Part shown: positions 1,537 through 25,516 of the stretch, one piece after another
Layout of the letters: the number at the start of each line of letters is the position of its first letter
Numbering within the stretch: position 1 is the first letter of the stretch
DNA from: Pseudomonadaceae bacterium SI-3
GTDB taxonomy: Bacteria > Pseudomonadota > Gammaproteobacteria > Pseudomonadales > Pseudomonadaceae
Assembly (NCBI GenBank): GCA_004010935.1
Contig: CP026511.1
Span: 558,001-622,000 of the forward strand
Direction of reading: 5' to 3'
DNA length: 64,000 bases
The notes under the pieces: generated by a model
Database searches by the model: none
Seen by the model: the letters and a program-made list of their open reading frames with translations, nothing else
Told to the model about the DNA's origin: nothing
Position numbers and translations under genes: made by a program

Positions 1537-7515
<5,979 letters not shown>

Positions 7516-9705: not shown

Positions 9706-10932
9706 TCAAGCCCAGCGGCGGAAGATCAGCGAAGTGTTGATGCCGCCAAAGGCGAAATTGTTGTTCATCACGTATTCGTGCTGCATCGCTCGTGGTGCGT
9801 CGATGAGATAGTCCAGCTCGCCACAGCGCGGATCGATGCTGCCCAGATTCAGGGTGTGAATATAACGGTCGCTGTTCATCATCTCGATGCTGAACCAGGA
9901 TTCCAGAGCGCCGCAGGCGCCTAGCGTGTGGCCGAGGAAGCTCTTCTGCGAGCTGATCGGCATGCCACTGCCGAATAGCGATTGGGTGGCCAGGGTTTCG
10001 GCGATATCGCCCTGCTCGGTGGCGGTGCCATGACCGTTCACGTAGCCAATGGCGCCGGGTTGCAGGCCGGCGTCTTCCAGCGCCAGCTCCATGGCGCGAC
10101 GCATGGTCAGCTGTTCGGGCTTTGTCGCGTGCTGGCCGTCGGCATTGCTGCCAAAGCCGATCAGTTCGGCGTGGATCGTGGCGCCACGGGCGAGGGCATG
10201 CTCGAGCTCCTCCAGCACCAGTATGCCCGCACCTTCGCCGATCACCAGGCCATCGCGGCCGGCGTCGTAGGGACGCGGAGACGTATGCGGCGCGTCGTTC
10301 TTCAGGCTGGTGGCATACAGCGCATCAAACACCATGGCTTCGGTGGCGCAGAGTTCCTCAGCGCCGCCGGCCAGCATCATGGGCAGACGACCGAACTTGA
10401 TCGCCTCGTAGGCGTAGCCGATTCCCTGGCTCCCGCTGGTGCAGGCGCTCGACGTAGGAATCACTCGGCCAGTCAGGCCGAAGAAGATGCTGATGTTGGC
10501 CGCCGTGGTGTGCGGCATCATGCGGATGTAGGAGTTGGCGTTCAGCCCGTCGGCCACCGAGTTGAGCAGCATATTGCCGAAGGCCTTGATTTCCTCGGTG
10601 CTGCCGGTGGATGAGCCACAGGCGACGCCCATCCGGCCGTCACGGATCGACGGGTCATCGAGCAGGCCGGCATGGGTGAGGGCCTGTTCAGCGGCCTTCA
10701 CCGACAGCCGCGAGACTCGGCCCATGCTGCGCAGTTGTTTGCGTGTCCAGTGCCTGGGGACGGCAAAGTCATCAACCGGCCCCGCCAGCCGGGTGTTGAG
10801 TTCAGTGAACCGGTCCCACTCGTGCATGTAGCGAATGCCGCTGCGGTTGCTGCTGAAGTGGGCTTCGATACTGGCCCAGTCGCTGCCCAGTGAGGTGATG
10901 CCGGCCATGCCGGTGACAACGACGCGTTTCAT
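9706..10932 (-). CDS. apeR: Beta-ketoacyl-ACP synthase of the APE pathway (ApeR-like)
   Basis: FabF-type ketosynthase, 408 aa. The nucleophile Cys sits in SSACTSGSQGIGYA, and the catalytic histidines in NGHGTATEQGD and FLGHTLGACGALE; the C-terminal NNNFAFGGINTSLIF is conserved. Start ATG 10932 shares its A with the TGA of apeQ (TGATG), which favours coupled translation over a GTG at 10938. It is called ApeR rather than ApeO by position: in described APE clusters this larger ketosynthase follows the reductase. It should condense malonyl-ACP with the growing polyene chain, as a homodimer in characterised systems. Confidence 0.88.
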   Translation of the reverse strand: MKRVVVTGMAGITSLGSDWASIEAHFSSNRSGIRYMHEWDRFTELNTRLAGPVDDFAVPRHWTRKQLRSMGRVSRLSVKAAEQALTHAGLLDDPSIRDGRMGVACGSSTGSTEEIKAFGNMLLNSVADGLNANSYIRMMPHTTAANISIFFGLTGRVIPTSSACTSGSQGIGYAYEAIKFGRLPMMLAGGAEELCATEAMVFDALYATSLKNDAPHTSPRPYDAGRDGLVIGEGAGILVLEELEHALARGATIHAELIGFGSNADGQHATKPEQLTMRRAMELALEDAGLQPGAIGYVNGHGTATEQGDIAETLATQSLFGSGMPISSQKSFLGHTLGACGALESWFSIEMMNSDRYIHTLNLGSIDPRCGELDYLIDAPRAMQHEYVMNNNFAFGGINTSLIFRRWA

Positions 10933-11660
10933 CAGCACAACCCGCCGTTGACCGCGAGAACCTGACGGGTGATGTAGCTGGCCTCTTCCGACATCAGAAA
11001 GTTGACCGCGCCAGCGACTTCTTCAGGCGTGCCCATGCGCTGTGCTGGAATCATCTTGAGCATCTCCTCGATGGGCAGGTTGTCGTCGAGCATGTCGGTA
11101 TCGATCAGCCCGGGTGCGACGCAGTTGACGGTGATGCGTCGTTTACCGAGTTCCACCGCCAGAGCCTTCGCCGCGCCGATCACGCCGGCCTTTGACGCGC
11201 TGTAGTTGACCTGGCCGCGGTTGCCGATCAGCCCCGACACCGAGGTAATGCAGACGATTCGTCCAGGCTGGCGGCGACGTATCATCGGCATGGTCAGTGG
11301 CTGCAGGACATTGTAGAAACCGTCCAGATTGGTGCGCATGACCAGATCCCAGTCGTCCTCGGTCAGGGCTGGAAAGGCGCCGTCGCGGGTTAGCCCGGCG
11401 TTGCACACCACGCCGTAATAGGCGCCATGGGTTTCGACATCGGCTTCCAGCTGTTCACGACATTGCGCGCGATCCGCCACGTCGAACTGCAGGATCCGCG
11501 CCGCGCGGCCCATCTCCTGAATCTGCGTCTGGACGGTTTCCGCCTCGTCCCGCCGCGCGCGGCAATGCAGGACGATGTCGTGACCACTTTGTGCCAGGCG
11601 CAACGCAATGGCGCGGCCGATGCCGCGACTGGAACCGGTGACGAGGATGCTGTTACTCAT
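10932..11660 (-). CDS. apeQ: 3-oxoacyl-ACP reductase of the APE pathway (ApeQ)
   Basis: Short-chain dehydrogenase/reductase of the FabG type, 242 aa. It has the NADPH glycine motif TGSSRGIGRAIA near the N terminus, NAG in VCNAGLTRDG, the catalytic Ser in CITSVSGLIG, and Tyr/Lys in YSASKAG. The start is ATG 11660 (MSNSILVTGSSRG), which overlaps the apeP stop as ATGA; a longer frame from 11753 would run through apeP. It reduces the 3-keto group formed in each condensation before dehydration to the conjugated double bond. Confidence 0.92.
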   Translation of the reverse strand: MSNSILVTGSSRGIGRAIALRLAQSGHDIVLHCRARRDEAETVQTQIQEMGRAARILQFDVADRAQCREQLEADVETHGAYYGVVCNAGLTRDGAFPALTEDDWDLVMRTNLDGFYNVLQPLTMPMIRRRQPGRIVCITSVSGLIGNRGQVNYSASKAGVIGAAKALAVELGKRRITVNCVAPGLIDTDMLDDNLPIEEMLKMIPAQRMGTPEEVAGAVNFLMSEEASYITRQVLAVNGGLC

Positions 11661-12109
11661 GGGGAAGGCTCTTGCAGATAGCTCGCCACTTCGGGCGGGC
11701 GGTACACGTTGAGGCGCGCCTCGGCATGGATGCCGGGCCCGTCGAGATGGCATTCGAACACGCCCATGCCGTTGTCATCCTGCAGCGAACGCAGCGCATG
11801 GATGCGTAACCGGCTACCGGCTGGGAAGTGTTCTACATTGCATTGGAAGCGGCGGGTGCCCAGTAAAAAGCCCAGTTCCACTGGTTGTCCGGCCTGGCGC
11901 GCCTGGCAGCCAGCAAAAGCGGCGACCGTCTGCGCCATGATCTCGATGCCGACCCAGGCCGGCAGGCTGCCGTCGGGCGAATTGAGCAGACCGCCAGGCT
12001 TCACCTGCAATTGCGCGGTAATGCTATCCGCATCGAATGATTCGACGGCGCCGAGCAGGATCATATCTCCCGCATGAGGCAGTAGTTCGGCTACTGGCCA
12101 ATCAATCAT
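11657..12109 (-). CDS. apeP: Hotdog-fold 3-hydroxyacyl-ACP dehydratase (ApeP)
   Basis: 150 aa. The N terminus has the dehydratase motif LLPHAGDMILL with the catalytic His, then AWVGIEIMAQTVAAFAG, where Glu is the partner residue of the FabA/FabZ-like fold. In characterised APE systems ApeP works as a heterodimer with ApeI; here ApeI is fused to the ligase encoded at 21858-23537. ATGA overlaps join it to apeO upstream and apeQ downstream. Confidence 0.9.
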   Translation of the reverse strand: MIDWPVAELLPHAGDMILLGAVESFDADSITAQLQVKPGGLLNSPDGSLPAWVGIEIMAQTVAAFAGCQARQAGQPVELGFLLGTRRFQCNVEHFPAGSRLRIHALRSLQDDNGMGVFECHLDGPGIHAEARLNVYRPPEVASYLQEPSP

Positions 12110-13293
12110 GGCGCATCTCCCAGGATCAGGCTGATGTTATTGCCACCAAAAGCAAAGGAGTTGCTCATCGTCCTCCGCTGCCCGGCCGCTGTCGCTTGGG
12201 TGCCGGGTGCGATCAGATTCAGCCATGGCAGGTCGGCGTCTTGCTCGCCGTCCCAGCGATGCGGCGGCAGCTGCTGTGCAGGGTAATGGTCGGACAGGGT
12301 CAGCCAGCAGAACGCCGCTTCCAGTGCTCCGGCGGCACCCAGGGTATGGCCGGTGAGCGGCTTGGTGGATGAGCAGGGCACGCCGGCCGGAAACACCGTA
12401 GCCACAGCCAGGCTTTCCATTGCATCGTTGTGTCGCGTAGCGGTGCCGTGCAGGTTCAGGTAGCTGATCTGCTCGGCAAGAACTGCGGCGCTGCGCAATG
12501 CTTTGCCCATCGACTCTATCGCGCCTAGCCCCTGCGGGTCGGGGGCCGAGATGTGGTGCGCATCGGAACTGGCGCCGCCGCCTAGCAGGGCAATCGGAGC
12601 GCGTTCACGAGTCATGAGGAACACAGCGGCCGCTTCGCCAATATTGATGCCGTCTCGGTTGACCGAAAACGGATTGCAAACATGGGCGCTGGTCGCCTCC
12701 AGCGAGCTGAAACCGCGAAGGGTCAGGTCACACAGCGAATCCACCCCGCCACAGATCACTGCATCGCAGACGCCCGCATCCAGCAGTCGTTTGGCACTGA
12801 GCAGTGCGCGTGCACTCGACGTACACGCCGTGGATATCGCGTAGCTCGGGCCGCTGAGCTGCAGTCGCTCACTGATGAAGCTGGCCGGTGCACAAAGCTC
12901 TTGATGGGTGTAGTGATAGCTGGACGGCAATTGGCCGTCACGTACCAGACGAGCTATTCCCTGGGTCGCCTCCTGAATACCGGAGGTGCTCGTCCCCATG
13001 ACCACGCCGACACGGCTTGGGCCGAAGCGGGAAATTGCTTCATCCACTTCGCATGCGATTTCGTCCAAGGCAGCCAACAGCAGCTGGTTGTTGCGGGTGG
13101 CGTACTGCAGCGGCGCATCGGCAAGCGAGGGTAGCTCGACAGTGACGGCGCCGACCGGCAGACGGCGCCCGGCAATCATCTGGGGATGCGGCTGCATACC
13201 TGAGCTGTCGCCTGCCAGCAGGCGGCGTGCGACTTCAGCCTTGCCGCGCCCCAGGGCGCAAATCAGCCCGAGTGCATTGAGGTAGGCGGTCAT
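12106..13293 (-). CDS. apeO: Beta-ketoacyl-ACP synthase of the APE pathway (ApeO-like)
   Basis: 395-aa ketosynthase with Cys in ISTACTSSARALL, His in NLHGTATRHND and PLTGHTLGAAGALEAA, and the C-terminal SNSFAFGGNNISLIL. Its place directly after the DUF3261 lipoprotein gene matches ApeO in other APE clusters. Published APE work describes ApeO paired with the ketosynthase-like ApeC, much like a KS/chain-length-factor pair; the partner here is the gene at 25492-26211. The start overlaps the apeN stop (ATGA). Confidence 0.88.
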   Translation of the reverse strand: MTAYLNALGLICALGRGKAEVARRLLAGDSSGMQPHPQMIAGRRLPVGAVTVELPSLADAPLQYATRNNQLLLAALDEIACEVDEAISRFGPSRVGVVMGTSTSGIQEATQGIARLVRDGQLPSSYHYTHQELCAPASFISERLQLSGPSYAISTACTSSARALLSAKRLLDAGVCDAVICGGVDSLCDLTLRGFSSLEATSAHVCNPFSVNRDGINIGEAAAVFLMTRERAPIALLGGGASSDAHHISAPDPQGLGAIESMGKALRSAAVLAEQISYLNLHGTATRHNDAMESLAVATVFPAGVPCSSTKPLTGHTLGAAGALEAAFCWLTLSDHYPAQQLPPHRWDGEQDADLPWLNLIAPGTQATAAGQRRTMSNSFAFGGNNISLILGDAP

Positions 13294-13817
13294 TGTTGGC
13301 GGGCTCCGGCTGGCGCGATAGGCGCGACACGATAGGTCAGCGTCGGTTCGACGTCGAGTTCGAAGCCGCCATTTTTCTCATAGCGAACGTGCCAGGCCGA
13401 GGTATCGTCTGCCAGCGACCGGCCGTTTTGCTGAAGCGCCCAAGGCTTACCAGCATAGAGCTCGTCCAGCTGCTCAGCGGGGCTGAGTGCGAATAGCAAG
13501 GCGGCAAACAGCGCGCGCGCTTCGGCATTCGGAGGCAGCAGCCCATCGGCTTGCCAGCGTCCATCAAGGAGTAGCTGGCGCGCCAGCGGTACGCCCAGTG
13601 GGTTGAACAGCGACCAACGCAATGCAGCCCCTTCTTGCTGAATCACCAATAGCCAATCGTCGGTTTCGCCCTGCTCGTGACGCTGGATATGCAACTGCAT
13701 CGGCAGCGACAGCCGTGGCGCCTGGCTCGGCAAGGGCTGTTGCTGCGCGCAGGCGCCGAGCAACAGCAGCAGCGGTAGCCAGATCAGACGTGACAGCTTG
13801 TGTTTCATCGAAATCAT
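13290..13817 (-). CDS. apeN: DUF3261 outer-membrane lipoprotein (ApeN-like)
   Basis: 175 aa from ATG 13817, which overlaps the stop of the upstream gene as ATGA; ATG 13808 (MKHKLS) would give 172 aa and cannot be excluded. The signal peptide ends in a lipobox, LLLLLGAC, so the protein is predicted to be lipidated at that Cys. The rest is a globular periplasmic domain of the DUF3261 type found in APE clusters. With the LolA-like and MMPL proteins it probably helps move the lipid-linked polyene to the outer membrane (inference from family and context). Confidence 0.85.
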   Translation of the reverse strand: MISMKHKLSRLIWLPLLLLLGACAQQQPLPSQAPRLSLPMQLHIQRHEQGETDDWLLVIQQEGAALRWSLFNPLGVPLARQLLLDGRWQADGLLPPNAEARALFAALLFALSPAEQLDELYAGKPWALQQNGRSLADDTSAWHVRYEKNGGFELDVEPTLTYRVAPIAPAGARQQ

Positions 13818-15067
13818 GCAGGCGCCGGAGTGGCGCAGAGTTCGGCCAATACGCGCAAGCGGCGTCTGGGCTCCGCGACGTAGGGGTTGCTGTTGTCCCA
13901 GGCGTAACCAGCGAGGATCGAGCAGATCATGCGGCGAATCTCCGGCTGGGCGCGTTCGTAGTAGATCACGTCCTGAAAGCTGCCGTCGTACCAGCCCTCG
14001 ACATAGGCGCGGAAGGTATCCACGCCCCGCTTCAGAGGGATCGAGAATTCGCGGTCCCAGTCCACGGTCTCGCCGTTCAGCTGCCGGTGCAGTACCGCAG
14101 CCGCCATGCTTGCCGAGCGCATCGCAATAGTGACCCCGGACGAAAACACAGGGTCGAGAAACTCGGCCGCATTGCCCAGAAGCGCAAAGCCGGGGCCGTG
14201 CAGCGCTTTGACGTTCGCCGAGTATCCGTTGATCAGGCGTGCCGGCGTGTCCCATTCAGCGTGCTTGAGGATGCGCTGCAGGTTGGGGGCCTCAAAGACG
14301 AACGCCTTTAGACAGGCGTCCAGATCCAGCGGGCGTCCAGCGTAACGTTCCGCGCTGGCGACGACGCCCAGAGAGCACCGACCGTCGCTGAAGGGGATGG
14401 TCCAGAACCATACATCGCGCCATTCAGGGTGGGTGGTGATGAGGATTTTGTTGCGGTCGAAATGCGGGTCTTCAATGTTGTCCCTGATGTGAGTGAACAC
14501 CGCACGGCGCAGCGGAAAGTTCGACGGCGCTTCCAGGTCGAGCAAGCGCGGCAGCACCCGGCCGTAGCCGCTGGCGTCGAGGACAAAGTCGGCGTGCAGC
14601 GCATATTCGCTACCGTCGAGACGGCGGACCTGCAAATACGGGTGCGGGCCGTCGAAATCCGCGGCGGTAATTTCCTCTTCGTAACGAATCTCTACGCCTT
14701 GCAGAGCGGCCTGATCGGCCAACAGCTGGTCGAAATCCGCGCGCTGCACCTGATAGGTGCTGCCGTGGCCTTCGGTGAATTTGTCGCGGAAATCGAACTC
14801 GGTGTAGCGGTCACCGCAACCGAACGCTGCGCCATGTTTGATCTGAAAACCTGCGGTCTGTACCGCTTCGAGCATGCCGGCTTCCTCGATGAAATCCAGG
14901 CAATGCGAAAGCAGGCTCTCTCCGATCGAAAAGCGTGGAAACCGCTGTCGTTCGATGATCAGCACGTCATGCCCCTGACGCTTGAGCAGGGCAGCGGCGA
15001 TGGCCCCGGAAGGCCCTGCGCCAATAACGACGACGCTACGTTTTTCTGAATGCGAGGAAGCCTTCAT
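13814..15067 (-). CDS. Flavin-dependent halogenase-like oxidoreductase in the APE cluster
   Basis: 417-aa flavoprotein. Visible motifs: FAD-binding GAGPSG (16-21), FSIGES (46-51), Lys77 in GFQIKHGAAF, and WFWTIP at 220-225. The last fits the WxWxIP signature of FADH2-dependent halogenases, and Lys77 lies where these enzymes carry the lysine proposed to guide hypohalous acid. The family most resembled is the phenolic/carrier-bound type rather than the tryptophan type. It could halogenate the aryl head group, as in brominated xanthomonadins, but non-halogenating relatives exist. The start follows a 148-bp gap, unusual in this tightly overlapping operon; the stop overlaps apeN (ATGA). Confidence 0.8.
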   Translation of the reverse strand: MKASSHSEKRSVVVIGAGPSGAIAAALLKRQGHDVLIIERQRFPRFSIGESLLSHCLDFIEEAGMLEAVQTAGFQIKHGAAFGCGDRYTEFDFRDKFTEGHGSTYQVQRADFDQLLADQAALQGVEIRYEEEITAADFDGPHPYLQVRRLDGSEYALHADFVLDASGYGRVLPRLLDLEAPSNFPLRRAVFTHIRDNIEDPHFDRNKILITTHPEWRDVWFWTIPFSDGRCSLGVVASAERYAGRPLDLDACLKAFVFEAPNLQRILKHAEWDTPARLINGYSANVKALHGPGFALLGNAAEFLDPVFSSGVTIAMRSASMAAAVLHRQLNGETVDWDREFSIPLKRGVDTFRAYVEGWYDGSFQDVIYYERAQPEIRRMICSILAGYAWDNSNPYVAEPRRRLRVLAELCATPAPA

Positions 15068-15215: not shown

Positions 15216-17555
15216 TCAAGATGCTGGCTCTTCGGTGGTTTTTGCCGCCCAAGGCGCGAGCAGAAACGCAAATACCAGACCGATGCCCACCGCCAGGCCA
15301 AAGTTGCTCACGGCCGGTGTGCTCGACAAGGCCAGGAGGCCGAACGATAGCCAAGTCGTGACGGCCGCGAGTAGCGTGCCGACCAGGCTCACCGCAGCGC
15401 CACCGATCCGCTCACGCATGAGAATCGCGTAGTCCACCCCGATTGCCGTGACCAATAACAGGCCGAACAGGCCAAACAGGGTCAACGGCTGGCCCAGCCA
15501 ACCGAGGCAGGCAAGGCTGCCAAGCGCTGCAAGTAGCGGAACAGCCAGGCAGCGCAGGGCGCCGCTCCAGCCGAACGGCAGACACAGCAGAGCCAGGATA
15601 ACGACAGCGGCAAACATCTTGAGCAGCGCCGCCTGGCGCTGGGTCTCGGCAAATAAGCGATTCAGCTCTGCGGGCCGGTCGACGAGGCTGACCCCGGCAA
15701 TACCGTCAGCCAGGCCGTGCAGCGCCGAACTGTCGCGCAGGCCTTGCAGGCTGATCAGGCCAGCAACCGTGCCGTCGCTCCGCGTGCTCAGCCAAAGCGG
15801 GCGCCACGGTTCGGCAATCGGTCCTGCCAACACCTGATCCAGGCCTGTCACTGGTTTCGCCTGCAGAGCGGCAAGTTCCTTTTCGAGCGCCCCAGCAGTC
15901 ATGCCAAGCGCCAGCAGTGGCTGGCTGTATTCCAGCAGGCGCGGCAGGGCGAGATGCAGGCTTTCCTGGGCGACGGTCGTGGCCGCCAACTGGCTCAGGG
16001 CTAAATAACCGCGCAGCTTCTGCTCTGCCACCAGCTCGTCAAGGCGGGTGCCGAGCGCTTCCTGGCGCTCCAGCAACTCGTCAGCCGTCTGCGCGCGAAC
16101 CAGGAAATACTGGCTGGTAGGCTCGAAGCCAGTGATCTGGCCGATGCGCTCGGCTTGTTGTTGCAGCGCCGGCGCTCGGCTGACCCATTGGCGCAGGTCA
16201 TCCTTGAACGACACCTGACTGATGCCGGCCAGGCAGAACACCACGAAGCCGGCCAGCAGCCAGCTCGACGGCAGCCGACCGAGCAACCGTTGACGCAGGG
16301 CCAAGGCGCGTTCAGCCCAGCTCAGCGGGGCCGCCCACGGCTGCAGTGGCACGTTCACCAACGAGGGGAGCAGGCAGGTCGCGCAGGCGAAGGCGCCCAG
16401 CAGTCCGGCGGCAGAAAAGACGGCGACCTGGCTCAGCGCTGGAAACGGGGTAAACGCCATGGCTAGATAGCCGATGACATTGGTCGCCAGGGCCAGGGCC
16501 AGGCCTGGCAGCGTCAAGCGCAGGGCCCGAAATGCCTGCCAGGGCTGCAACGTCCAGCTTTTGGACAAGTAATGCAGCGGGAAATCGATGCTGACACCGA
16601 CCAAGCTGGCCCCCAGCACGAGGGTCAGCACATGGATCTGACCGAACAGAGCAACGCAGGCCGCGGCGCCGCTGAGCGCCCCGACTAGCACCGGCAACGC
16701 GACCAGCAGGACGCGCGATGTACGAAACAGCAGATGGAGCAAGGCGAGCGTGGCGACGAGCGAGACGCTCCCGATAAGGCTCGCTTCCTCACGCGCCTGG
16801 CGCTGCCCGTACGCCGCATGCAGCACGCCGCCAGCCGCGAGCAGTTCGCCCTGCTGGGACTCGACCCGGTGGCGAGCGGCACGGACCTGATCGTCGATCA
16901 GGAGTGGCAGCTTGTCATCAAAGGCGTCGCCGTGGATTTGCGCATGGATCACGGCCCAACGCTGGCCGTCATGTTCGGCCAGCAATGCGCCATCGAGGCG
17001 CGGATGGATATTGCCCGGATGCGGGAGCCGACGCTGCGCCAGGTCGGCCAAGCCGAACCAGTCTTCTTCGACCGGCACGAGGCTGGTGCTTTCGAACGGG
17101 CTGAACAGGCGCTGCAGGCGTTGTTGAATGAAGTCTTCGGGTGAGGCGATCAGGGCTTCGCGGCTGGCCCGGTCGAGCAATACCAGTCGTTGATCCAGCA
17201 ACTGCTGGCGCATCGCTGGCAAATCGGCCTGCACAGAGCGACGAACTTGTGCGAACAGGCCGCTGGCCTTGAGGTTGCCAGCGACCTCCTGGGCCAGCGC
17301 GACGGCCGTGTCTTCGTCTTCATGTTGAACCAGCAGCATCAGGTCGCGATTGAGTGGGGCCTGCACGCGCTGCTCGGCGAGTTGCTCCAGCTCCCCTGGC
17401 GCGCCGCTGGGCAGCAACTGCAGCAGGTTGGCGCTGATTGGCGGGCCATTGCGCCATTGCCATGCGGTCAACGCGACCAGTCCGAGTAGCGCCAAAAAGA
17501 ATAGCGAGGAGAGCCAGGCCGGTAGCCTGAGCGCGTGATCAGTCGGCGAGGTCAT
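15216..17555 (-). CDS. apeM: MMPL/RND-family exporter of the APE cluster (ApeM)
   Basis: 779-aa inner-membrane protein with the RND/MMPL duplication. There is one membrane segment near the N terminus, a large periplasmic domain (about 45-255), a block of five to six segments (about 260-400), one segment at about 430-450, a second periplasmic domain (about 455-630), and a final block (about 640-770). The loop motif GVSIDFPLHYLSKS in block one and GVDYAILMRER in block two are the paired charged motifs of proton-driven MMPL proteins. Probable role: flipping or exporting the polyene lipid. The start overlaps apeL by 17 bp. Confidence 0.88.
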   Translation of the reverse strand: MTSPTDHALRLPAWLSSLFFLALLGLVALTAWQWRNGPPISANLLQLLPSGAPGELEQLAEQRVQAPLNRDLMLLVQHEDEDTAVALAQEVAGNLKASGLFAQVRRSVQADLPAMRQQLLDQRLVLLDRASREALIASPEDFIQQRLQRLFSPFESTSLVPVEEDWFGLADLAQRRLPHPGNIHPRLDGALLAEHDGQRWAVIHAQIHGDAFDDKLPLLIDDQVRAARHRVESQQGELLAAGGVLHAAYGQRQAREEASLIGSVSLVATLALLHLLFRTSRVLLVALPVLVGALSGAAACVALFGQIHVLTLVLGASLVGVSIDFPLHYLSKSWTLQPWQAFRALRLTLPGLALALATNVIGYLAMAFTPFPALSQVAVFSAAGLLGAFACATCLLPSLVNVPLQPWAAPLSWAERALALRQRLLGRLPSSWLLAGFVVFCLAGISQVSFKDDLRQWVSRAPALQQQAERIGQITGFEPTSQYFLVRAQTADELLERQEALGTRLDELVAEQKLRGYLALSQLAATTVAQESLHLALPRLLEYSQPLLALGMTAGALEKELAALQAKPVTGLDQVLAGPIAEPWRPLWLSTRSDGTVAGLISLQGLRDSSALHGLADGIAGVSLVDRPAELNRLFAETQRQAALLKMFAAVVILALLCLPFGWSGALRCLAVPLLAALGSLACLGWLGQPLTLFGLFGLLLVTAIGVDYAILMRERIGGAAVSLVGTLLAAVTTWLSFGLLALSSTPAVSNFGLAVGIGLVFAFLLAPWAAKTTEEPAS

Positions 17556-18159
17556 GGTGTTCGCCGGGGCTCAACTGATCGTCGATCTGAATGTCAGTCA
17601 GCGTTAGCAGGGTACTGTCGCCCTGGGCTTCGACCAGCTCGATACGCTCGGCGGTGGCACTCCCCTGAATCAGAATGGTGGAGAAGATCTGGGCAAGCAG
17701 TCGGGAGCGTGGCGTCAGGGTCAGCGCCCATGCCTGCGTAGTTCCCGTCAGTTGCAGTTCAAAATCGCGCTGCAGGGCTTCGGTATCACCCTGCAGTACG
17801 GCTAGAAAAAGCTCGTTCTGTCGCGCCGCAGGCCCTTGCTGACTGGTCTGCTTCCAGCCGTTTGGCGTGCGCCGGGCAATGCCGGCGGCGCTGATGCGGT
17901 AATCCTGTTGCACCGGATCTTGCAGGAACCACAGCAGACCCCTGTCGCGTGCCAGGACGAAGGTGCCCACGCTGACCAGCGGTTGGGGCAGTGCGCGCAG
18001 GTATTTCTCCTGGGTGAAGGTGCCACGAACCACCGTGGGTTCGCGCAACTGCAGGCTGAGTTGGACCAGATCGAAGGCGTTGGCGCGGGTGGTCAGCGCC
18101 AACAGCAGGCTCAGTGCGACCAGCAAGGCCCAGCAAGGGCTGTTGAATAAACGCTTCAC
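17539..18159 (-). CDS. apeL: LolA-like periplasmic carrier (ApeL)
   Basis: 206 aa with an N-terminal signal peptide ending near TRANA. The mature part has the LolA-like features VVRGTFTQEKYL and LWFLQDPVQQDYRISAAGI. It probably carries the hydrophobic polyene or its lipoprotein partner across the periplasm. The start is GTG 18159, overlapping the thioesterase stop as GTGA, which supports this weaker start codon by translational coupling. Confidence 0.85.
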   Translation of the reverse strand: MKRLFNSPCWALLVALSLLLALTTRANAFDLVQLSLQLREPTVVRGTFTQEKYLRALPQPLVSVGTFVLARDRGLLWFLQDPVQQDYRISAAGIARRTPNGWKQTSQQGPAARQNELFLAVLQGDTEALQRDFELQLTGTTQAWALTLTPRSRLLAQIFSTILIQGSATAERIELVEAQGDSTLLTLTDIQIDDQLSPGEHHDLAD

Positions 18160-18581
18160 AGCAGCGCGCGCTCCACGGCTTCGACCAGCACCTTCGGCGA
18201 AGCCAGCAGCATTTCGCGGCTGGCGATCTCCACGGCAACTTGCACGGTGCTGCCGCGCGTCATGCGCTCACCGGTTTCTGCGTCGTTGATCAGGTAGTTG
18301 ATCTTCAGGCGGTTCTCCCACTCGACCAGATCGGCGCGAACAACGATGCGCTGATTGAAACGGGCGCCGCGCATATAGCGCAGCTGTACATCGATGATCG
18401 GCCAGGCGTAGCCGGCTTCTCTCATCTGCACATAGTTGTGGCCAATACGGTCGAGCAGGGCGCAGCGCGCCATTTCGAAATACTTGACGTAATGGCCGTG
18501 CCAGACGATGTCCATGGAGTCGACGTCGAAGAAGGGCACCAACACTTCGATCTCTGCCTGCAGTACGCCGCCCTTACGCAT
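18156..18581 (-). CDS. apeK: 4HBT-type acyl-ACP thioesterase (ApeK-like)
   Basis: 141-aa hotdog thioesterase. VPFFDVDSMDIVWHGHYVKYFE is the YbgC/4HBT active-site segment, with the catalytic Asp (FDVDSMD) and the following His. ATG 18581 overlaps the ammonia lyase end by 8 bp; an in-frame start at 18644 lies deep inside that gene and is unlikely. It may release the finished chain or edit mis-primed carrier proteins. Confidence 0.88.
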   Translation of the reverse strand: MRKGGVLQAEIEVLVPFFDVDSMDIVWHGHYVKYFEMARCALLDRIGHNYVQMREAGYAWPIIDVQLRYMRGARFNQRIVVRADLVEWENRLKINYLINDAETGERMTRGSTVQVAVEIASREMLLASPKVLVEAVERALL

Positions 18582-20112
18582 ACAGCCCCCAGTGCTGCGC
18601 ACGAATTCGCTCGAGGCAAAGGCGCAGTTCGCGTTCCAGCGCACGGTCTTCGATCAGCGGTGGGAAGTCTTCGCCAAGCGCTTCGTGCATCAGCGATAGC
18701 GGTGCCGGTAGCGGCCGCGAGCCCTGCTGACGTTGACGCAGCCAGACGCCCTGGTTCGCGGCGATCAGCGTGGCGGCGGCGACCTGCTCGGTCAGTTCCA
18801 GGCTGCGCAATGCGTCGCGCGCGGCAATGGTGCCCATGCTCACCTTGTCCTGGTTGTGACACTCGGTCGAGCGCGAAAAAACGCTGGCCGGCATGCTGTT
18901 CTTCAGGGCTTCCGCGGTCCAGGCGCTGGCGCCGATCTGCACCGCCTTGAAGCCATGGTTGATCATCGCTGTGGCTTCGGGGGCGCCGGACAGGTTGCTC
19001 GGCAAGCCGTGGTTGTAACGAGTATCGACCAGCAACGCGAGCTGCCGGTCGAGCAGGTCCGCGACGTTGGCAACGAGATTCTTCAAGCTGTCCATGGCGA
19101 AGGCGATATGTCCGCCATAGAAATGCCCACCATGCAGCACCCGCTCGTTTTCCGCGTCGATGATCGGGTTGTCGTTTGCGCTATTCAGTTCGGTTTCGAT
19201 GAACTGCCGCAGCAGGCCCAGGCTGTCGGCGAGCACACCGAGCACGTGCGGGGCGCAGCGCAGCGAGTAACGGTCCTGCAGGCGATGCAGCGGCGCCGCC
19301 GGCGCCTCGATGGCCAAGTCCTGACGAATCCAGGCGGCCACCTGCATTTGCCCAGGGTGCGGTTTGGCAGCGAACAGGCGCTCGTCGAAATGTTCCGGAT
19401 TGCCTTCCAGTGCGATGACGTTGAGCGCGGTGATCCGGGTCGCCAGTTTCAGCAGGTAATCGGCGCGGGCATAGGCCAGACAGGCCAGGCCGGTCATCAC
19501 TGCGGTGCCGTTCATCAGCGCCAGGGCCTCCTTCGGACGGAGAGTCAGCGGCGTCCAGCCAAGTTGGCGGTGTACCTCGGCGGCGCTGCGGCGTTCGCCC
19601 CGATACATCACCTCTCGCTCGCCAGCCAGGGTCGCCGCGACATAGGACAGCGGCGTGAGGTCACCGCTGGCGCCGACCGAGCCTTCTTCGGGGATCAATG
19701 GCAGCACGTCATGCTCGAGGAACGCCTGCATGCGCTCGAGCAACTCGATGCGTACCCCAGACATGCCGTGCGTCAGCGAACGCAGGCGAGCGGCCAGGAC
19801 CGCGCGCGTGGCTTCCGCGTCGAGCAGCTTGCCCAGGCCGCAGCCGTGAAAGGTGAACAGATGCTGCGGCAGGGCTTCGACCTGGTGCAGCGGCACCGCC
19901 ACCACGCAGGAATCGCCATAGCCGGTGGTCACGCCGTAGATCACACCTTCGCGGTCGAGCAGGGTGTCGAGAAACTGTGCACCGCGGGCGATCCGTTCGC
20001 GGAACGCCGCGTCGGACTGCAGCCGGGCGGGCGCACGGCCCTGGGCCACGGCCAGCAGGTCCTCGATGCGCAGGTGGTTTTCGCCAAAGATGACGGGCTC
20101 AGCGTTGTTCAT
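18574..20112 (-). CDS. MIO-dependent aromatic amino acid ammonia lyase (HAL/PAL/TAL family)
   Basis: 512 aa. The Ala148-Ser-Gly150 triad (VGASGDLTPLSY) forms the MIO prosthetic group, and Tyr59 in VIYGVTTGYGDS is the catalytic Tyr. The substrate-selectivity pair reads Phe88-His89 (TFHGCGLG), unlike the textbook Ser-His of histidine lyases, Phe-Leu of phenylalanine lyases or His-Leu of a typical tyrosine lyase. In an aryl polyene operon, tyrosine deamination to 4-coumarate as a starter acid is the likely role. ATG 20112 overlaps the acyltransferase end by 14 bp. This gene is absent from the minimal E. coli-type APE cluster. Confidence 0.88.
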   Translation of the reverse strand: MNNAEPVIFGENHLRIEDLLAVAQGRAPARLQSDAAFRERIARGAQFLDTLLDREGVIYGVTTGYGDSCVVAVPLHQVEALPQHLFTFHGCGLGKLLDAEATRAVLAARLRSLTHGMSGVRIELLERMQAFLEHDVLPLIPEEGSVGASGDLTPLSYVAATLAGEREVMYRGERRSAAEVHRQLGWTPLTLRPKEALALMNGTAVMTGLACLAYARADYLLKLATRITALNVIALEGNPEHFDERLFAAKPHPGQMQVAAWIRQDLAIEAPAAPLHRLQDRYSLRCAPHVLGVLADSLGLLRQFIETELNSANDNPIIDAENERVLHGGHFYGGHIAFAMDSLKNLVANVADLLDRQLALLVDTRYNHGLPSNLSGAPEATAMINHGFKAVQIGASAWTAEALKNSMPASVFSRSTECHNQDKVSMGTIAARDALRSLELTEQVAAATLIAANQGVWLRQRQQGSRPLPAPLSLMHEALGEDFPPLIEDRALERELRLCLERIRAQHWGLYA

Positions 20113-21040
20113 GGGTGTCCCAGAAAGGGTAGAAGTTGAACCATTGCAAGGGTGCCTCCAGGCAGCGCGCCGCCAGTCGATCCGCATAGCGCTGCACCCA
20201 GCGCTGCACGACGGCATCGCGTTCGCCTCGGCGCCATTCGATGCAGTCGGCGAAGGGCTCCAGATGGACATGAAATTGCTCGCCCTGTTTCAGGCAGAAC
20301 AACAGATTTGCCGGACATTGCAGCAACCCGGCCAATAGCCAGGGGCCCTGGGGGAAAGCGGCCGGCTGTCCTAGAAAGTCGGCCGTGGCAATGCGCGCGC
20401 CCTGTAGCGGTACCCGGTCACCGGCGATGGCCAGCCATTCGCCTTGGTCCAGCCGGTGGGACAACTCCATCATGATCGCCGGGTCGAGCTCACTGACCTG
20501 GATCAGCCGTAAGTTGTTCGCGCCGGACTCGTTCAGTAGCCGGTTGAATTGTTCGGCGTGGCGAGTATGTACCAGAACGTTCATTCTGACCTTGCGGCCC
20601 ATTTCTGCCAGGGCTCGGCAGATCTCCAGATTGCCCAGGTGCGAGCCGACCAGCAGCTGGCCACGCGGCGCCTTGAGGTCAGCGTGCAGGTTGGCGCTGT
20701 CATGCAGCACCAGTCGATCCAGCCTCAGGCGTCCACCCCAGACATCGAGCTTGTCCAGCAAGGCATCGGCGAAGGCCATGAACTGGCGATAGACCGAGTG
20801 CCAGTTGGGCGCCAGATCGGCGCGGCCGCTGTACGCGGCGAGGTTCTGTTGGTACCGCCAGGCGCTCTGCCGCGCGCTGCGGTTGAACAGGTAGAAATAC
20901 AGCACGATCAGGTACAGCAGCGGTGCCATGGCACGTCGGCCAAGCAGGCGCACGGCCCAAGCCGTTAGCTTCATCAAGGCAAAGCTGCCCCGCTCGCGGT
21001 GCGCGGCCCAATGCGAACCGGCTGAGGCCTGTTCGCTCAT
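20099..21040 (-). CDS. LpxL/HtrB-like acyltransferase of the APE cluster
   Basis: 313 aa. A membrane segment near residues 35-50 (PLLYLIVLYFYLF) precedes the acyltransferase signature SHLGNLE (HX4E) and a later conserved GDRVPL segment, the pattern of lipid A late acyltransferases. In other APE clusters a glycosyltransferase and an acyltransferase are fused as ApeJ; here they are two genes overlapping by 4 bp (ATGA). The likely role is attaching the polyene, or a fatty acid, to the glycolipid anchor. The start at ATG 21040 is set by that overlap. Confidence 0.82.
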   Translation of the reverse strand: MSEQASAGSHWAAHRERGSFALMKLTAWAVRLLGRRAMAPLLYLIVLYFYLFNRSARQSAWRYQQNLAAYSGRADLAPNWHSVYRQFMAFADALLDKLDVWGGRLRLDRLVLHDSANLHADLKAPRGQLLVGSHLGNLEICRALAEMGRKVRMNVLVHTRHAEQFNRLLNESGANNLRLIQVSELDPAIMMELSHRLDQGEWLAIAGDRVPLQGARIATADFLGQPAAFPQGPWLLAGLLQCPANLLFCLKQGEQFHVHLEPFADCIEWRRGERDAVVQRWVQRYADRLAARCLEAPLQWFNFYPFWDTHEQR

Positions 21041-21861
21041 CCCCTCCACCGACGCCAGAGCAGTGCGGGCGCCCGCATGAGCATGCCGCCGAACAGCCGT
21101 GCGTGCATCGACGAGATCAGCAGGTTGTCGCGCCACAGACGGAAGTGCGAAACCCCATCGGCCGGGTAGTGCACCCGCGTCGGCAGCCAGACCATCGGCT
21201 GCTGTCGCCAGTGCAGGCGAACCAGGATTTCGGTGTCGAAGTCCATGCGCTGACCCAACGTCATCGCGTCGAGCAGGGCCAGGGTGGGGGGCAGCGGATA
21301 GACGCGAAAGCCGCACATGGAGTCGCGGATCGACAAGGACAGGGTGTTAATCCAGACCCAGACGTGGGTCAGGTAGCGACCATAAAGACGCCCCTTCGGC
21401 ACGCTCGAGTCGTACTGGGGATAACCGCAGATCAGCGCATCCGGCGCCTGGCTGGCGCGGTCGAGAAACAGCGCCACGCAGCCCAGGTCATGCTGGCCGT
21501 CGGCATCCACCTGCAGTGCATGGCTGAATCCCAGGCGCGCCGCCTCGCGCAGGCCGGATACAACCGCTGCGCCTTTGCCCTGATTGCGGCGGTGGCGGAG
21601 CAGGTGCACTGAGGGTTGTTCTGCCAACTCATCGATAACCGCCGCCGCTGCCGGGCTGGAGCCATCATCAACGAGCACGCACTGCAAGTCTTCGGCGAGC
21701 AATGCACGAACGACGCCGGGCAGGCTGGCCTCGTGGTTGTACACCGGCACCACCGCGCACGGCTTGAACCAGTCTTCGTCAATCGCTAGCGACAACTGTT
21801 GAGGGCTGTCCTTAACGGGCACGGTCGCCATCGCAGGCTCAAGCGGGGTAAGCATGGTCAC
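21037..21861 (-). CDS. Family 2 glycosyltransferase of the APE cluster
   Basis: 274 aa, GT-A fold: the N-terminal VVPVYNHEASLPGVV, the VDDGSSP loop and the DXD-like QVDADGQHD (nucleotide-sugar and metal binding) are intact, and an internal MCGFRVY is typical of GT2 enzymes. GTG 21861 overlaps the ligase stop as GTGA; ATG 21855 is the alternative. It probably adds a sugar to the aryl polyene lipid. With the next gene it corresponds to the two halves of fused ApeJ proteins. Confidence 0.85.
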   Translation of the reverse strand: MTMLTPLEPAMATVPVKDSPQQLSLAIDEDWFKPCAVVPVYNHEASLPGVVRALLAEDLQCVLVDDGSSPAAAAVIDELAEQPSVHLLRHRRNQGKGAAVVSGLREAARLGFSHALQVDADGQHDLGCVALFLDRASQAPDALICGYPQYDSSVPKGRLYGRYLTHVWVWINTLSLSIRDSMCGFRVYPLPPTLALLDAMTLGQRMDFDTEILVRLHWRQQPMVWLPTRVHYPADGVSHFRLWRDNLLISSMHARLFGGMLMRAPALLWRRWRG

Positions 21862-23537
21862 AGCGGATCTCCCAGCAGAATGCGGCCGGACGAGCAGGGT
21901 GCGTCGCCGTTGCGGTATGCGAAGTGCAGCTTGCTGCGCTCGCGGTCGAAGCGCAGCGTCAGACTCAACTGGTCACCCGGACGGGCGAGCTGTTGGAACT
22001 TGAGCACTTCCATGCCTTGAAAGCTCGGTGGCAGGTCGGCGATCAGCTCGCGGGCGAGGCCGATGGCCCAGTCGATCTGCACCACGCCGGGCAGAACCGG
22101 GGTCTGCGGGAAATGCCCGGTGAAGTGCGCGAGGTCCAGCGGGACGGCCAACTGCAGCTGCCACTGGTCTTCTTCTTGGGAAGCGCTGAGTCGCTCCGGC
22201 TGCAGCGGGCGCGGCGCCTGCAACAGCGCGTCGAGTTGTGCCTGCGCGAGCTTGCCCTGACTGTTGCAGGGCAGCTGGGCGACAAGCCTCCAGCGGCGCG
22301 GTAAGGCTAGCGCTTCGCAGTGGTTTGCCAAGTGCTTGCGCAACGTCTCGGTCAATGCGCGTCGACCACCGTTGCGCAGCGCATGCAGGCCGGCTTCGCT
22401 CAGTGCGACCAGCGCCGCGAGGTAGGCGCGATTGTCATTGATCACCCCCAGCCGCGCGTCACTGACGAAAGGGTGAGCGGCCAACGCTGTTTCGAGCATC
22501 GGCAGAGCAATGCGCTTCTCTTCCAGCTTGACGATACGATCCAGTCGGCCGAGCAGCTCGAAGCGTCCATCTGCTTCGATGCGCGCCGCATCGGCGGTTT
22601 GTTCGACGTGGCCTGGAGGCAGGCAAGGCGAGGCGATGCGCAGCGCTCCATGATCGTCCTGGCTCAACTGCACCCCGGCGAACGGCTGCCACAGGGCGCC
22701 GCCTTGGCGCCAGGCGATGCCACCGGTCTCGGAGCTGCCGTAGATCTCGGTCGGTAGCTGACCCAGTCGCTGCTGCAGTCGCTGCCCTGCCTCGACATCC
22801 AGGGCTCCCCCTGAGGAAAAGACCCGGCGCACGCTGCGCAAAGCAGGCCAGTCGAGGTTGTCCCCCATCCGCTTGAGCAGCGCCGGGCTGGCCACCCAGC
22901 AGAAGCGCGGATGCTGACGGCTGGCCAGCTGCAGGTCTTCGGAAAAGGGTTGCGCGCGGCGCAGAAAGGGACGGCCGGCGCACAACGGCCAGAGCACGCG
23001 GAACAGCAGTCCATAGATGTGCTGCGCGGAGACGCTGGCAATCATGCAGGCGTCGCCGAGGTCGGCGCCCCAGCAGGCTTCGAGTGTTTCCACTTCGTTT
23101 GCCAGCTGGCGCAGGCGTTTGTCGATCAGTTTCGGCTCGCCACTGGAGCCTGAGGTGCAGAGCAGCAATCGGCACTGGTCCAGATCCAGCTTCGCCCCTT
23201 CGAGCGGCTCGGCAAACAGCTCCGAGAGATGAGCATCGCCGTCCTGATCGGTCAGCCAGAGATCGGCCTGGTGGGCCAGTCGCGCTCGGCTGGCGGGCTG
23301 CAGGTCGGCGGGTAGCAATACAGTTACGCCGGCTCGCCAGGCGCCGAGCAAGGCAATCGCCAGCTCGCCGGCGTCCTCCAGATGCACTGCGAGCCTGGCG
23401 ACGCCACGGTTACGCAGCCCAGCAGCCACACGCAGCGCTCGTTGGCGCAGCTCGGCATGCTCAAGGACGGGATCGAGCGTGACCGGCCGCGACGTGGGCG
23501 TCTGGTCGAGCAGATGTTCGAGGGGAATCCAGTTCAT
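21858..23537 (-). CDS. Starter acyl-AMP ligase fused to ApeI-like dehydratase (ApeH-ApeI)
   Basis: 559 aa in two parts. Residues about 1-430 are an ANL adenylating enzyme: the P-loop-like CTSGSSGEPK, YGSSETGGIAW and GRLDRIVKLEEKRI are the A3, A5 and A8-type motifs. From about 455 to the end lies a hotdog domain with FTGHFPQTPVLPGVVQIDWA, the FabA/FabZ-like segment seen in ApeI. The fusion therefore joins starter activation (an aryl acid loaded on an acyl carrier protein) to one half of the ApeI/ApeP dehydratase. ATG 23537 overlaps apeG (ATGA). The terminal lysine of the ligase was not located with confidence. Confidence 0.88.
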   Translation of the reverse strand: MNWIPLEHLLDQTPTSRPVTLDPVLEHAELRQRALRVAAGLRNRGVARLAVHLEDAGELAIALLGAWRAGVTVLLPADLQPASRARLAHQADLWLTDQDGDAHLSELFAEPLEGAKLDLDQCRLLLCTSGSSGEPKLIDKRLRQLANEVETLEACWGADLGDACMIASVSAQHIYGLLFRVLWPLCAGRPFLRRAQPFSEDLQLASRQHPRFCWVASPALLKRMGDNLDWPALRSVRRVFSSGGALDVEAGQRLQQRLGQLPTEIYGSSETGGIAWRQGGALWQPFAGVQLSQDDHGALRIASPCLPPGHVEQTADAARIEADGRFELLGRLDRIVKLEEKRIALPMLETALAAHPFVSDARLGVINDNRAYLAALVALSEAGLHALRNGGRRALTETLRKHLANHCEALALPRRWRLVAQLPCNSQGKLAQAQLDALLQAPRPLQPERLSASQEEDQWQLQLAVPLDLAHFTGHFPQTPVLPGVVQIDWAIGLARELIADLPPSFQGMEVLKFQQLARPGDQLSLTLRFDRERSKLHFAYRNGDAPCSSGRILLGDPL

Positions 23538-24112
23538 GTAACGTTCCTGACGCGCTGGCGTATCACCCACTCTCCGGCGAACAACAGTCCCATCAGCAGA
23601 TAGGCGATAAAACCGGTGTAAAGCGTCCACCAGCTCAGCGGCGCCCAGAGCGCGAGTGCGCTGGCGATACCGGCGTTGACGATGAAATAGCCCACCCAGA
23701 CCCAGGTCACCTGCCGCGTATAGCGCACAGCCGCGGGTGGGAGCTCGGGTTCGCTTAGCCGCGCGAGGCGTTCGATGATCGGCATGCCGGAGTAGAGGCT
23801 GCCGGCAAACAGGCCAAGCAGCGCCAGGCTGATCAGTACGGGATACCAGCGTAACAACGCCGGCTCGTCAGCCAGCCCCAGCAACAGGCAGAACAGCAGC
23901 GCGGTCGCTGCCACCGTATTGCTCAGCAGTGTCTGCTTGCCACTGCATAGGCGAGCCAGCCAGAGCGCGCCGAGCAGCAGCGCAAAGAGCCGAGGCGACA
24001 GCTGCTCCAGCCCCACATACACAACGAACGGGTAGGCGAGGCCGACCAGCAACAGGGCGAGGCCTGTTAGCCGACTGGCGTTCGCAGTGCCTGTTCGAGC
24101 GGGTGTCTGCAT
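23534..24112 (-). CDS. apeG: Polytopic membrane protein of the APE cluster (ApeG, COG4648-like)
   Basis: 192 aa from ATG 24112; an in-frame GTG at 24163 would add 17 residues but has no better ribosome binding site. About six hydrophobic segments are visible (LTGLALLLVGLAYPFVVYV, LFALLLGALWLARL, AATALLFCLLLGLA, LISLALLGLFAGSLY, WVWVGYFIVNAGIASALALWA, LYTGFIAYLLMGLLF). A conserved integral membrane protein of unknown activity at this position in APE operons; it may anchor or assist the synthase at the membrane. Confidence 0.8.
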   Translation of the reverse strand: MQTPARTGTANASRLTGLALLLVGLAYPFVVYVGLEQLSPRLFALLLGALWLARLCSGKQTLLSNTVAATALLFCLLLGLADEPALLRWYPVLISLALLGLFAGSLYSGMPIIERLARLSEPELPPAAVRYTRQVTWVWVGYFIVNAGIASALALWAPLSWWTLYTGFIAYLLMGLLFAGEWVIRQRVRNVT

Positions 24113-24194
24113 CGTGCCGTCCGTTTGCGCATGGGAGCTTGATCCGGGGAGCTCTGGGCTCACCGGACAATGCTTGGTTGGTTGATCGGGTGGG

Positions 24195-24452
24195 TCAGGC
24201 CGGTTGCGGGTTCACCAGCCGATACACCGCCTCGACGACATCGCCCACGGTTCGTACCGACTTGAATTCCTCTGCGGCAATCTTCTTGCCTGTCTGTCGC
24301 TTGATGTGATCGATCAGGTCGACGGCGTCGATGCTGTCAATTTCAAGATCCTGGTATAGGTTGGCTTCCAGGCTGATTCGCTCGGGTTCGAGTTCAAACA
24401 GCTCGACCAGCGCATCGCGCAGGGTCTGGAAGATTTCGTTGCGGCTTTCCAT
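24195..24452 (-). CDS. apeF: Acyl carrier protein 2 (ApeF)
   Basis: 85 aa. The phosphopantetheine attachment Ser is in LEIDSIDAVDL. The protein is acidic, four-helix and of normal ACP length. GAGGAGG lies ahead of ATG 24452 and the gene follows apeE by 1 bp, so the pair should be made together. One ACP is thought to carry the aryl starter or chain and the other the extender in APE systems; which is which cannot be read from sequence. Confidence 0.9.
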   Translation of the reverse strand: MESRNEIFQTLRDALVELFELEPERISLEANLYQDLEIDSIDAVDLIDHIKRQTGKKIAAEEFKSVRTVGDVVEAVYRLVNPQPA

Positions 24453-24453
24453 T

Positions 24454-24726
24454 TCAAGCCTCCTCGGTGACGGCGCGGTTGGCGCTGACGTAGGCGGTCA
24501 GGCTATCGACACTGGCGAAATGCTTGCGGGTGTCCTTCGCATCGGCGTCGATCTTGATACCGAAGCGCTTCTGGATCGCCAGACCCAGCTCCAGCGCATC
24601 GACCGAATCCAGCCCGAGCCCTTCGCCAAACAGCGGCTGGTCGGCTGCGATGTCGTCTGGGCCGAGGTCTTCCAGACCCAGGGCGTCGATGATCAGTTGC
24701 TTGATTTCAAGCTGCAGTTGGCTCAT
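24454..24726 (-). CDS. apeE: Acyl carrier protein 1 (ApeE)
   Basis: 90 aa with the attachment Ser in GLGLDSVDALELGLAI. AAGGAG lies 10 bases upstream of ATG 24726. The gene overlaps the end of apeD by 20 bp. Its sequence differs clearly from ApeF, so the two are distinct carriers rather than a recent duplication. Confidence 0.9.
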   Translation of the reverse strand: MSQLQLEIKQLIIDALGLEDLGPDDIAADQPLFGEGLGLDSVDALELGLAIQKRFGIKIDADAKDTRKHFASVDSLTAYVSANRAVTEEA

Positions 24727-25516
24727 CGAGTGCGAGCTCCTTTATGAAGTGTCGATGCAGATGATCGTTGAGTTGCCGAGAGGCAATGGGTGCTGCGCCA
24801 CGCGAAGCGAACATCTGCGGGTCGATATCCTCACCGACGCGCAGATGAAAATGAAAACGTCTTGCCGGAATCCGATACCAGGGCTCGGCTTTGGTCAGGG
24901 TGGTGGGTGTTACGGTGATCACGACCGGTGTGACCAGGCGTGCGCCACGAAGCGCGATAGCCGCCGCGCCCCGATGAAACTGCGGCGCCTGGCCCGGCGT
25001 GGTGCGCGTGCCTTCGGGAAAGATGATCAGTGTCTGGCCTTGCCTCAGCGCATCGGCTGCTTCGTCGAGCATCTCCGCGCTGCCGTTATTGCTGATGTAC
25101 TGAGCCGCACGTATCGGCCCGCGAGTGAAGGGGTTGTCCCACAGGCTCTGCTTGACCACACAGTTGGCGTCACGGATCAGTGCGATCAGCACCACCACGT
25201 CGATCAGCGAAGGGTGGTTGGCGATCACCAACTGCCCAGGGCGGCCGAGCCGTTCGGCACCCTCGACTTCATAGGTCAGTACGCCGCTGCGGTACATGAA
25301 CTGGACGAACAGCCAGAACAGCCGGCTCACGGTCTGTCGCGCCCGACTGCGGCGTTCGGTCGTGTCGCCTGGCAGCAGACCCAGCACAGGGAAGACGATC
25401 ATTCGCAGGCAGAGCCCGCCGAGACCGAACAGGGCAAACGACAGCCCGGTCGCGACCAGGCGCCACAGCCAGGGCGCGCTGTATCGGCGGTTCAATAGGT
25501 TTGCTGCCAGTTCCAT
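24707..25516 (-). CDS. apeD: 1-acyl-glycerol-3-phosphate-type acyltransferase (ApeD)
   Basis: 269 aa. An N-terminal membrane segment (about 20-50) precedes the PlsC-type motifs: ANHPSLIDVVVL (HX4D catalytic pair) and FPEGTRTTPGQAP. This second acyltransferase is separate from the LpxL-like one in the same operon, so two acylation steps seem to be involved in building the lipid carrier. ATG 25516 lies inside the 3' end of apeC (25-bp overlap). Confidence 0.88.
   Translation of the reverse strand: MELAANLLNRRYSAPWLWRLVATGLSFALFGLGGLCLRMIVFPVLGLLPGDTTERRSRARQTVSRLFWLFVQFMYRSGVLTYEVEGAERLGRPGQLVIANHPSLIDVVVLIALIRDANCVVKQSLWDNPFTRGPIRAAQYISNNGSAEMLDEAADALRQGQTLIIFPEGTRTTPGQAPQFHRGAAAIALRGARLVTPVVITVTPTTLTKAEPWYRIPARRFHFHLRVGEDIDPQMFASRGAAPIASRQLNDHLHRHFIKELALDEPTAA

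Follow-up and report, generated by a model that had tools for sequence, protein, structure and literature searches.

Background

Aryl polyene (APE) pigments differ in the methylation and halogenation of their head groups, as set out in an excerpt of PMC8253772, in which the APE clusters of E. coli and V. fischeri are also described as sufficient for production. Xanthomonadins bear from zero to two bromine atoms and the Xanthomonas clusters include a halogenase gene, whilst Lysobacter, without such a gene, makes a non-brominated pigment (excerpt of PMC3691225). Chlorinated flexirubins exist, and the C. pinensis pigment, C43H54O4, is halogen-free. An excerpt of PMC5851621 likens a cluster from Pseudomonas, in which ammonia lyase genes are present, to that of V. 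fischeri. Here we analysed a 64-kb window (the whole stretch of DNA under study, 64,000 nucleotides; contig CP026511.1, positions 558,001 to 622,000) from Pseudomonadaceae bacterium SI-3, which carries an APE cluster for a yellow pigment of the membrane, with a flavoprotein gene at 13814..15067 on the minus strand. Judged by its protein relatives, the host genome is a Stutzerimonas, the nearest named proteins among the matches listed being from S. xanthomarina (92% identity) and a strain filed as S. stutzeri (94%).

The initial annotation had read this gene as a halogenase within an APE operon containing a starter-making lyase, and had predicted a halogenated pigment. The open reading frame (ORF), its motifs and its operon setting were all confirmed. 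We lean towards the view that the flavoprotein works as a two-component, halogenase-type enzyme that depends on FADH2 and modifies the aromatic head of an aryl polyene.

Family assignment of the flavoprotein

The protein matched Pfam Trp_halogenase (PF04820) at 82.8 bits against a cut-off of 21, as well as FAD_binding_3 (PF01494) at 69.2 bits, and is the only PF04820 gene in the 4.84-Mb single-contig genome. Its best NCBIfam model was that of CmlS (NF033113, an equivalog), which like CndH is a variant-B halogenase; the flavoprotein, at 155.6 bits, lies far under the cut-off of 900. Bit scores against the flavoprotein split sharply across 369 genomes of the class, with 17 genomes at 344-964 bits and the next value at 176, and we defined family A as the 344-964-bit set.

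In the PDB search 3NIX stood apart (367 bits over residues 7-410), followed by eight halogenases at 120-157 bits. Released in 2010 by structural genomics, 3NIX is a flavoprotein/dehydrogenase from Cytophaga hutchinsonii, a member of another phylum, and its entry title gives no function. The AlphaFold2 model of the flavoprotein (predicted local distance difference test score 91.8) was likewise closest in fold to 3NIX, then to ChlB4, Mpy16, PltA and Bmp2. These four, which we take to be carrier-type halogenases, share 24-27% identity with the flavoprotein, read GDA where family A reads GNA and fall on a separate branch.

Phylogenetic analysis placed the flavoprotein within the clade of variant-B flavin-dependent halogenases (support 99/97), with family A as its own lineage (100/99), and geranylgeranyl reductases and UbiH branched apart in both trees. 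Family A fell within the halogenases in the quick tree (58 rows) and beside the characterised ones, as their sister, in the careful tree (56 rows). From the latter, 10 of 66 aligned rows were omitted, namely a duplicate-ORF UbiH row, a 13%-filled B row, X_L177 and seven N_ rows; geranylgeranyl reductases were represented by five of six loci, L251 having no usable ORF, and both trees were built without QhpG, the nearest proven hydroxylase. On these sequences, family A is assigned to a halogenase-containing clade as a separate lineage; the clustering with geranylgeranyl-reductase-like or monooxygenase families that would have told against the initial annotation did not appear.

Other identities were rejected. 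The geranylgeranyl reductase model (TIGR02032) scored 124.6 bits, under its cut-off of 158.8, and these reductases differ in branch and motifs; a UbiH-type monooxygenase was ruled out by score cut-offs, tree and motifs. For a p-hydroxybenzoate hydroxylase or other class A phenol hydroxylase, the 4-hydroxybenzoate 3-monooxygenase models gave 50.7 bits (cut-off 351) and 38.3 bits (cut-off 538.7), and the protein reads DASG rather than DG. Database names for family A are inconsistent, ranging over tryptophan 7-halogenase, NAD(P)/FAD-dependent oxidoreductase, p-hydroxybenzoate hydroxylase and an FAD-binding protein inferred for the ABFAE pathway.

Signature residues

The gene and its signature residues lie as follows, all on the minus strand.

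13814..15067, minus: family-A halogenase-like flavoprotein, 417 amino acids (ORF and translation; PF04820 and PF01494 matches; best PDB match 3NIX)
15005..15022, minus: GAGPSG FAD-binding motif, residues 16-21 (coordinates converted from residue numbers)
14915..14923, minus: GES, residues 49-51 (motif search of the 417-residue protein)
14837..14839, minus: Lys77, at the alignment position of the catalytic lysine of halogenases (invariant in 61/61 rows; K in 7/7 PDB halogenase rows)
14393..14410, minus: WFWTIP (WxWxIP), residues 220-225 (motif search and alignments)
14171..14173, minus: Asn299, in GNA where the compared halogenases have GDA (invariant in the 61-row alignment)
14135..14155, minus: DPVFSSG, residues 305-311 (motif search and alignment), found in addition to the motifs first annotated

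For a protein with this amino acid composition, the expected number of chance WxWxIP matches is 0.0003. Conservation was assessed in 61 rows, comprising the query and 60 homologues chosen from 360 listed, and all 61 family members retained Lys77, Trp220, Trp222, Ile224 and Pro225 together with Asp305, Pro306, Ser309, Ser310 and Gly311. In the wider 66-row alignment, the complete combination of lysine and WxWxIP was present in 32/32 family-A rows, 7/7 PDB halogenases and 11 of 12 rows of a second family, family B (the twelfth being a fragment). It occurred in none of five geranylgeranyl reductases, neither of two UbiH rows and none of seven other rows, one of these without data, while X_L177 lacked the full WxWxIP through replacement of Pro by Val. 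Among the groups compared, the combination is confined to the halogenase clade, in support of the initial annotation, which had called such a set rare outside FADH2-dependent halogenases.

The end of the DPxxSxG motif is more variable, with Q, T or Y at the second Ser in CmlS, FasV and Bmp2, and DPxxASG in B_L195. At residues 164-167 the protein has DASG, which it shares with most halogenase rows; two family-A rows have DGSG there. In the UbiH and reductase rows the last two residues of this stretch are DG instead (AADG in a UbiH row). The DG motif defines class A phenol hydroxylases. Because DASG replaces DG, we take this to mean that NADPH would not reduce the flavin on the family-A protein.

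Distribution in aryl polyene clusters

Within a sample of 398 genomes from the window's phylum, the phylum covered by our genome searches, family A was present in 47 (E up to 1e-60) and PF13723, the APE chain-length-factor family, in 89 (E up to 1e-15). All 47 family-A genomes also carried PF13723, with 42 carrying the marker alone and 309 neither (Fisher p 1e-36, the sampled genomes not being independent of one another). The contigs of named genomes held 271 relatives, from which we kept the best 80; loci above 9 kb were available for 78. In each of these 78, family A adjoined both ketosynthases, the ketoreductase, the ApeP dehydratase and the exporter, and the lyase was found in 76, the remaining two being shorter stretches. 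Further family-A loci above 9 kb held at least three APE genes in 36 of 38 cases and the lyase in 24 of 38, although 20-kb loci may miss a distant lyase gene; loci below 9 kb (L042, L063 and L168) were excluded from these counts. The exceptions were L146, where a ketoreductase was the only APE gene, and L167, whose 11 kb held none. The L167 member (2559-3797, minus strand) neighbours patatin-like, DsbB and AAA ATPase genes and branches with Bacteroidota members (support 96/82). The family-A gene of L166 reads as two pieces and is apparently broken.

The stretches read from 14 of the 42 marker-only genomes lacked family A. Two of them were incomplete, L286 with just two APE genes and L277 with a partial cluster, and others, including L274, L275, L279 and L280, held APE clusters with other genes present. 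In L274, L279 and L280 the exporter gene is followed by an ORF of about 190 residues, which occupies the position of the LolB-like gene, and then by a ketosynthase. Family A thus belongs to APE clusters as an accessory gene. In the Pseudomonas loci it is inserted into clusters that are otherwise similar, and the polyene can be made without it, as a tailoring role would predict; head-group tailoring is supported because an accessory position is what a tailoring gene should occupy. A. fischeri also encodes family A: a 90%-cluster named for this species, with 40 sequences, shows 98% identity to the family-A gene of G795, a genome in which that gene lies about 2 kb from the chain-length factor.

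Organization of the cluster

The remaining genes of the cluster, several of whose Ape labels were assigned by position, are listed below.

9706..10938, minus: ketosynthase (ApeR-like by position; profile matches)
10932..11753, minus: ketoreductase of FabG type (ApeQ-like by position; profile matches)
11657..12109, minus: ApeP-like dehydratase (PF22817)
12106..13293, minus: ketosynthase (ApeO-like by position; profile matches)
13290..13817, minus: ApeN/LolB-like lipoprotein (DUF3261) with its start in the ATGA overlap (refined start; PF11659 on the longer ORF)
15216..17555, minus: resistance-nodulation-division (RND)-type exporter (ApeM-like by position; Pfam gave no match, and RND-type models matched weakly, under cut-off)
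17539..18159, minus: LolA-like carrier (ApeL-like; profile matches)
18156..18644, minus: thioesterase (4HBT; ApeK-like by position; Pfam)
18574..20271, minus: aromatic amino acid lyase with the methylidene-imidazolone (MIO) motif ASG (PF00221, 535 bits; translation)
20099..21316, minus: lipid A-type acyltransferase (profile match)
21037..21861, minus: glycosyltransferase family 2 (ApeJ-like; profile match)
21858..23630, minus: fused AMP-binding ligase and ApeI-like dehydratase (PF00501 and PF22818 in a single ORF)
23534..24163, minus: ApeG-like protein, labelled by position (no Pfam match; conserved neighbour)
24195..24452, minus: acyl carrier protein (profile match)
24454..24726, minus: acyl carrier protein (profile match)
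24707..25516, minus: acyltransferase (ApeD-like; profile match)
25492..26211, minus: chain-length factor (ApeC-like), the APE marker (PF13723)

Read along the minus strand, the order runs from the chain-length factor through the acyltransferase, two acyl carrier proteins (ACPs), the ApeG-like protein, the ligase-ApeI fusion, the glycosyltransferase, the second acyltransferase and the lyase, and continues with the thioesterase, LolA-like carrier, exporter, flavoprotein, ApeN-like lipoprotein, ketosynthase, ApeP dehydratase, ketoreductase and final ketosynthase. We took the flavoprotein to be an operon member because its stop codon (TGA) overlaps the start (ATG) of the LolB-like lipoprotein gene as ATGA. 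The AMP ligase and the ApeI-like dehydratase share one ORF, and E. coli ApeI is named as a separate protein in the excerpt of PMC8253772.

At its selectivity site the lyase carries the pair FH, aligned with FL of PDB 2NYN, an entry named phenylalanine/histidine ammonia-lyase. All 110 tblastn stretches covering this site, some from overlapping loci, carry FH or YH, which to our knowledge matches none of the textbook selectivity pairs; the site thus points to neither tyrosine nor phenylalanine, and a 4-hydroxylated starter is one possible product. FlxA, another exception to the motif rules, was shown to be a tyrosine lyase.

Companion genes and a second halogenase-like family

The 64-kb window holds no FlxJ-family methyltransferase, and the named Pseudomonas loci likewise carry family A without a FlxJ-like methyltransferase. 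Such a gene lies near family A in seven of eight loci (L225 and L227-L233, family f189, taken as Vibrionaceae from protein names), L230 being without it, and in four of the 14 marker-only loci (L274, L275, L278 and L287). The methyltransferase of L152 scored 490 bits against the FlxJ model, which has a cut-off of 560.

Family B (L178-L196) is a second, distinct halogenase-like family with about 30% identity to family A, also located beside APE-type genes. The two families share these neighbours as well as the lysine and WxWxIP. Family-B rows, drawn from 12 of 19 long loci, formed their own branch in the careful tree apart from B_L195, and all ten rows with data carry Asp at the position of residue 299. 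An FkbO/Hyg5 chorismatase accompanied family B in 11 of the 19 long loci, and no chorismatase match was found in the family-A loci L138-L176. In gene neighbourhood alone, family B resembles the Azoarcus arcA gene beside arcB (excerpt of PMC3949708) and Xanthomonas xanB1 beside xanB2.

Proposed function and alternatives

The gene place, family, predicted fold, invariant residues and accessory APE link are what we observed; substrate, timing, halide and the formation of a carbon-halogen bond are inferred, in a mechanism patterned on characterised halogenases. Free FADH2, supplied by a reductase elsewhere in the cell, would bind the protein and react with O2 to give a C4a-hydroperoxyflavin, which a halide would attack to form hypohalous acid (HOX). 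The HOX would move past the WxWxIP strands to Lys77, which may relay it to a carbon atom of the ring, either in the carrier-bound starter or in the polyene. An ACP-bound substrate is weakly favoured on the predicted fold because the nearest fold matches include halogenases that we presume to be of the carrier-protein type.

Halogenation of the pigment by the flavoprotein is plausible and partly supported. The halogenase-clade grouping, the signature residues and the accessory APE position all lend the prediction support, but a halogenated product does not follow from them. Several observations temper it. The careful tree makes family A sister to the characterised halogenases (87/84); residue 299 is Asn in 32/32 family-A rows and Asp in 7/7 PDB halogenases; and p-hydroxybenzoate hydroxylases rank above CmlS in the fold list. 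No activity of any family-A member was found among the matches listed in Creative Commons-licensed PMC literature. The A. fischeri aryl polyene is reportedly methylated and without halogen, which, if true of the native pigment grown with bromide, would be the strongest evidence against halogenation. Azoarcus BH72 has arcA annotated as a halogenase, yet makes a non-brominated aryl heptaene (excerpt of PMC3949708). The parallel first drawn with xanthomonadins and chloroflexirubins holds in that brominated xanthomonadins and chlorinated flexirubins exist, but neither pigment is linked to family A. That the members of family A are true halogenases, forming a previously unrecognised lineage specialised for aryl polyenes, is a tentative proposal, which we rate as somewhat less likely than not.

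The weightiest alternative is a hydroxylase built on this scaffold, in which the halogenase fold and residues serve oxygenation, hydroxylating the ring or oxidising the polyene through the hydroperoxyflavin with no halide. It carries this weight because QhpG, a proven flavin-dependent peptidyl-Trp dihydroxylase, has the halogenase CmlS as its closest structure and retains two Trp, 181 and 183, in its channel (excerpt of PMC7876137). The flavoprotein scored 128.8 bits against the QhpG model (NF049967), below the cut-off of 240, which was reached in none of 143 genomes searched. Such a role would also suit Asn299, the fold ranking of p-hydroxybenzoate hydroxylases and the use of that name for some family members, and the lyase may give cinnamate, leaving the ring to be hydroxylated. 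We nevertheless regard oxygenation as unlikely, since no compared non-halogenase row with data has the lysine and WxWxIP that are invariant in family A, the closest structures after 3NIX are halogenases, and the head hydroxyl commonly comes from the precursor (excerpt of PMC8253772).

A part in APE assembly or lipid attachment, for instance by flavin-dependent reduction or desaturation of the polyene, is suggested by the position of the gene between the exporter and the LolB-like gene, whose start its stop overlaps, and by the TIGR02032 match. That match is below cut-off, the reductases form a separate branch and the clusters of L274, L275, L279 and L280 manage without family A, so we consider this role improbable. 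Least probable of all is a former halogenase, now inactive or rarely used and retained by drift: close kin within one genus do differ, G742 having the APE marker without a family-A match and G274 and G651 carrying both, but invariance of the signature residues across phyla speaks for selection on catalysis. The enzyme of halogenase type acting on the aromatic end remains our preferred reading.

Implications

If family A hydroxylates, the rule of calling halogenases by lysine and WxWxIP can mislead. If its members are true halogenases, ring-halogenated aryl polyenes would extend beyond Xanthomonas and flexirubin producers to many Pseudomonadaceae, Vibrionaceae and Bacteroidota, and may have been missed through heterologous production, bromide-poor media or a ring already methylated. 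With about half of the APE-marker genomes in the phylum sample carrying family A (47 of 89), its function would tell whether halogenation commonly finishes these pigments.
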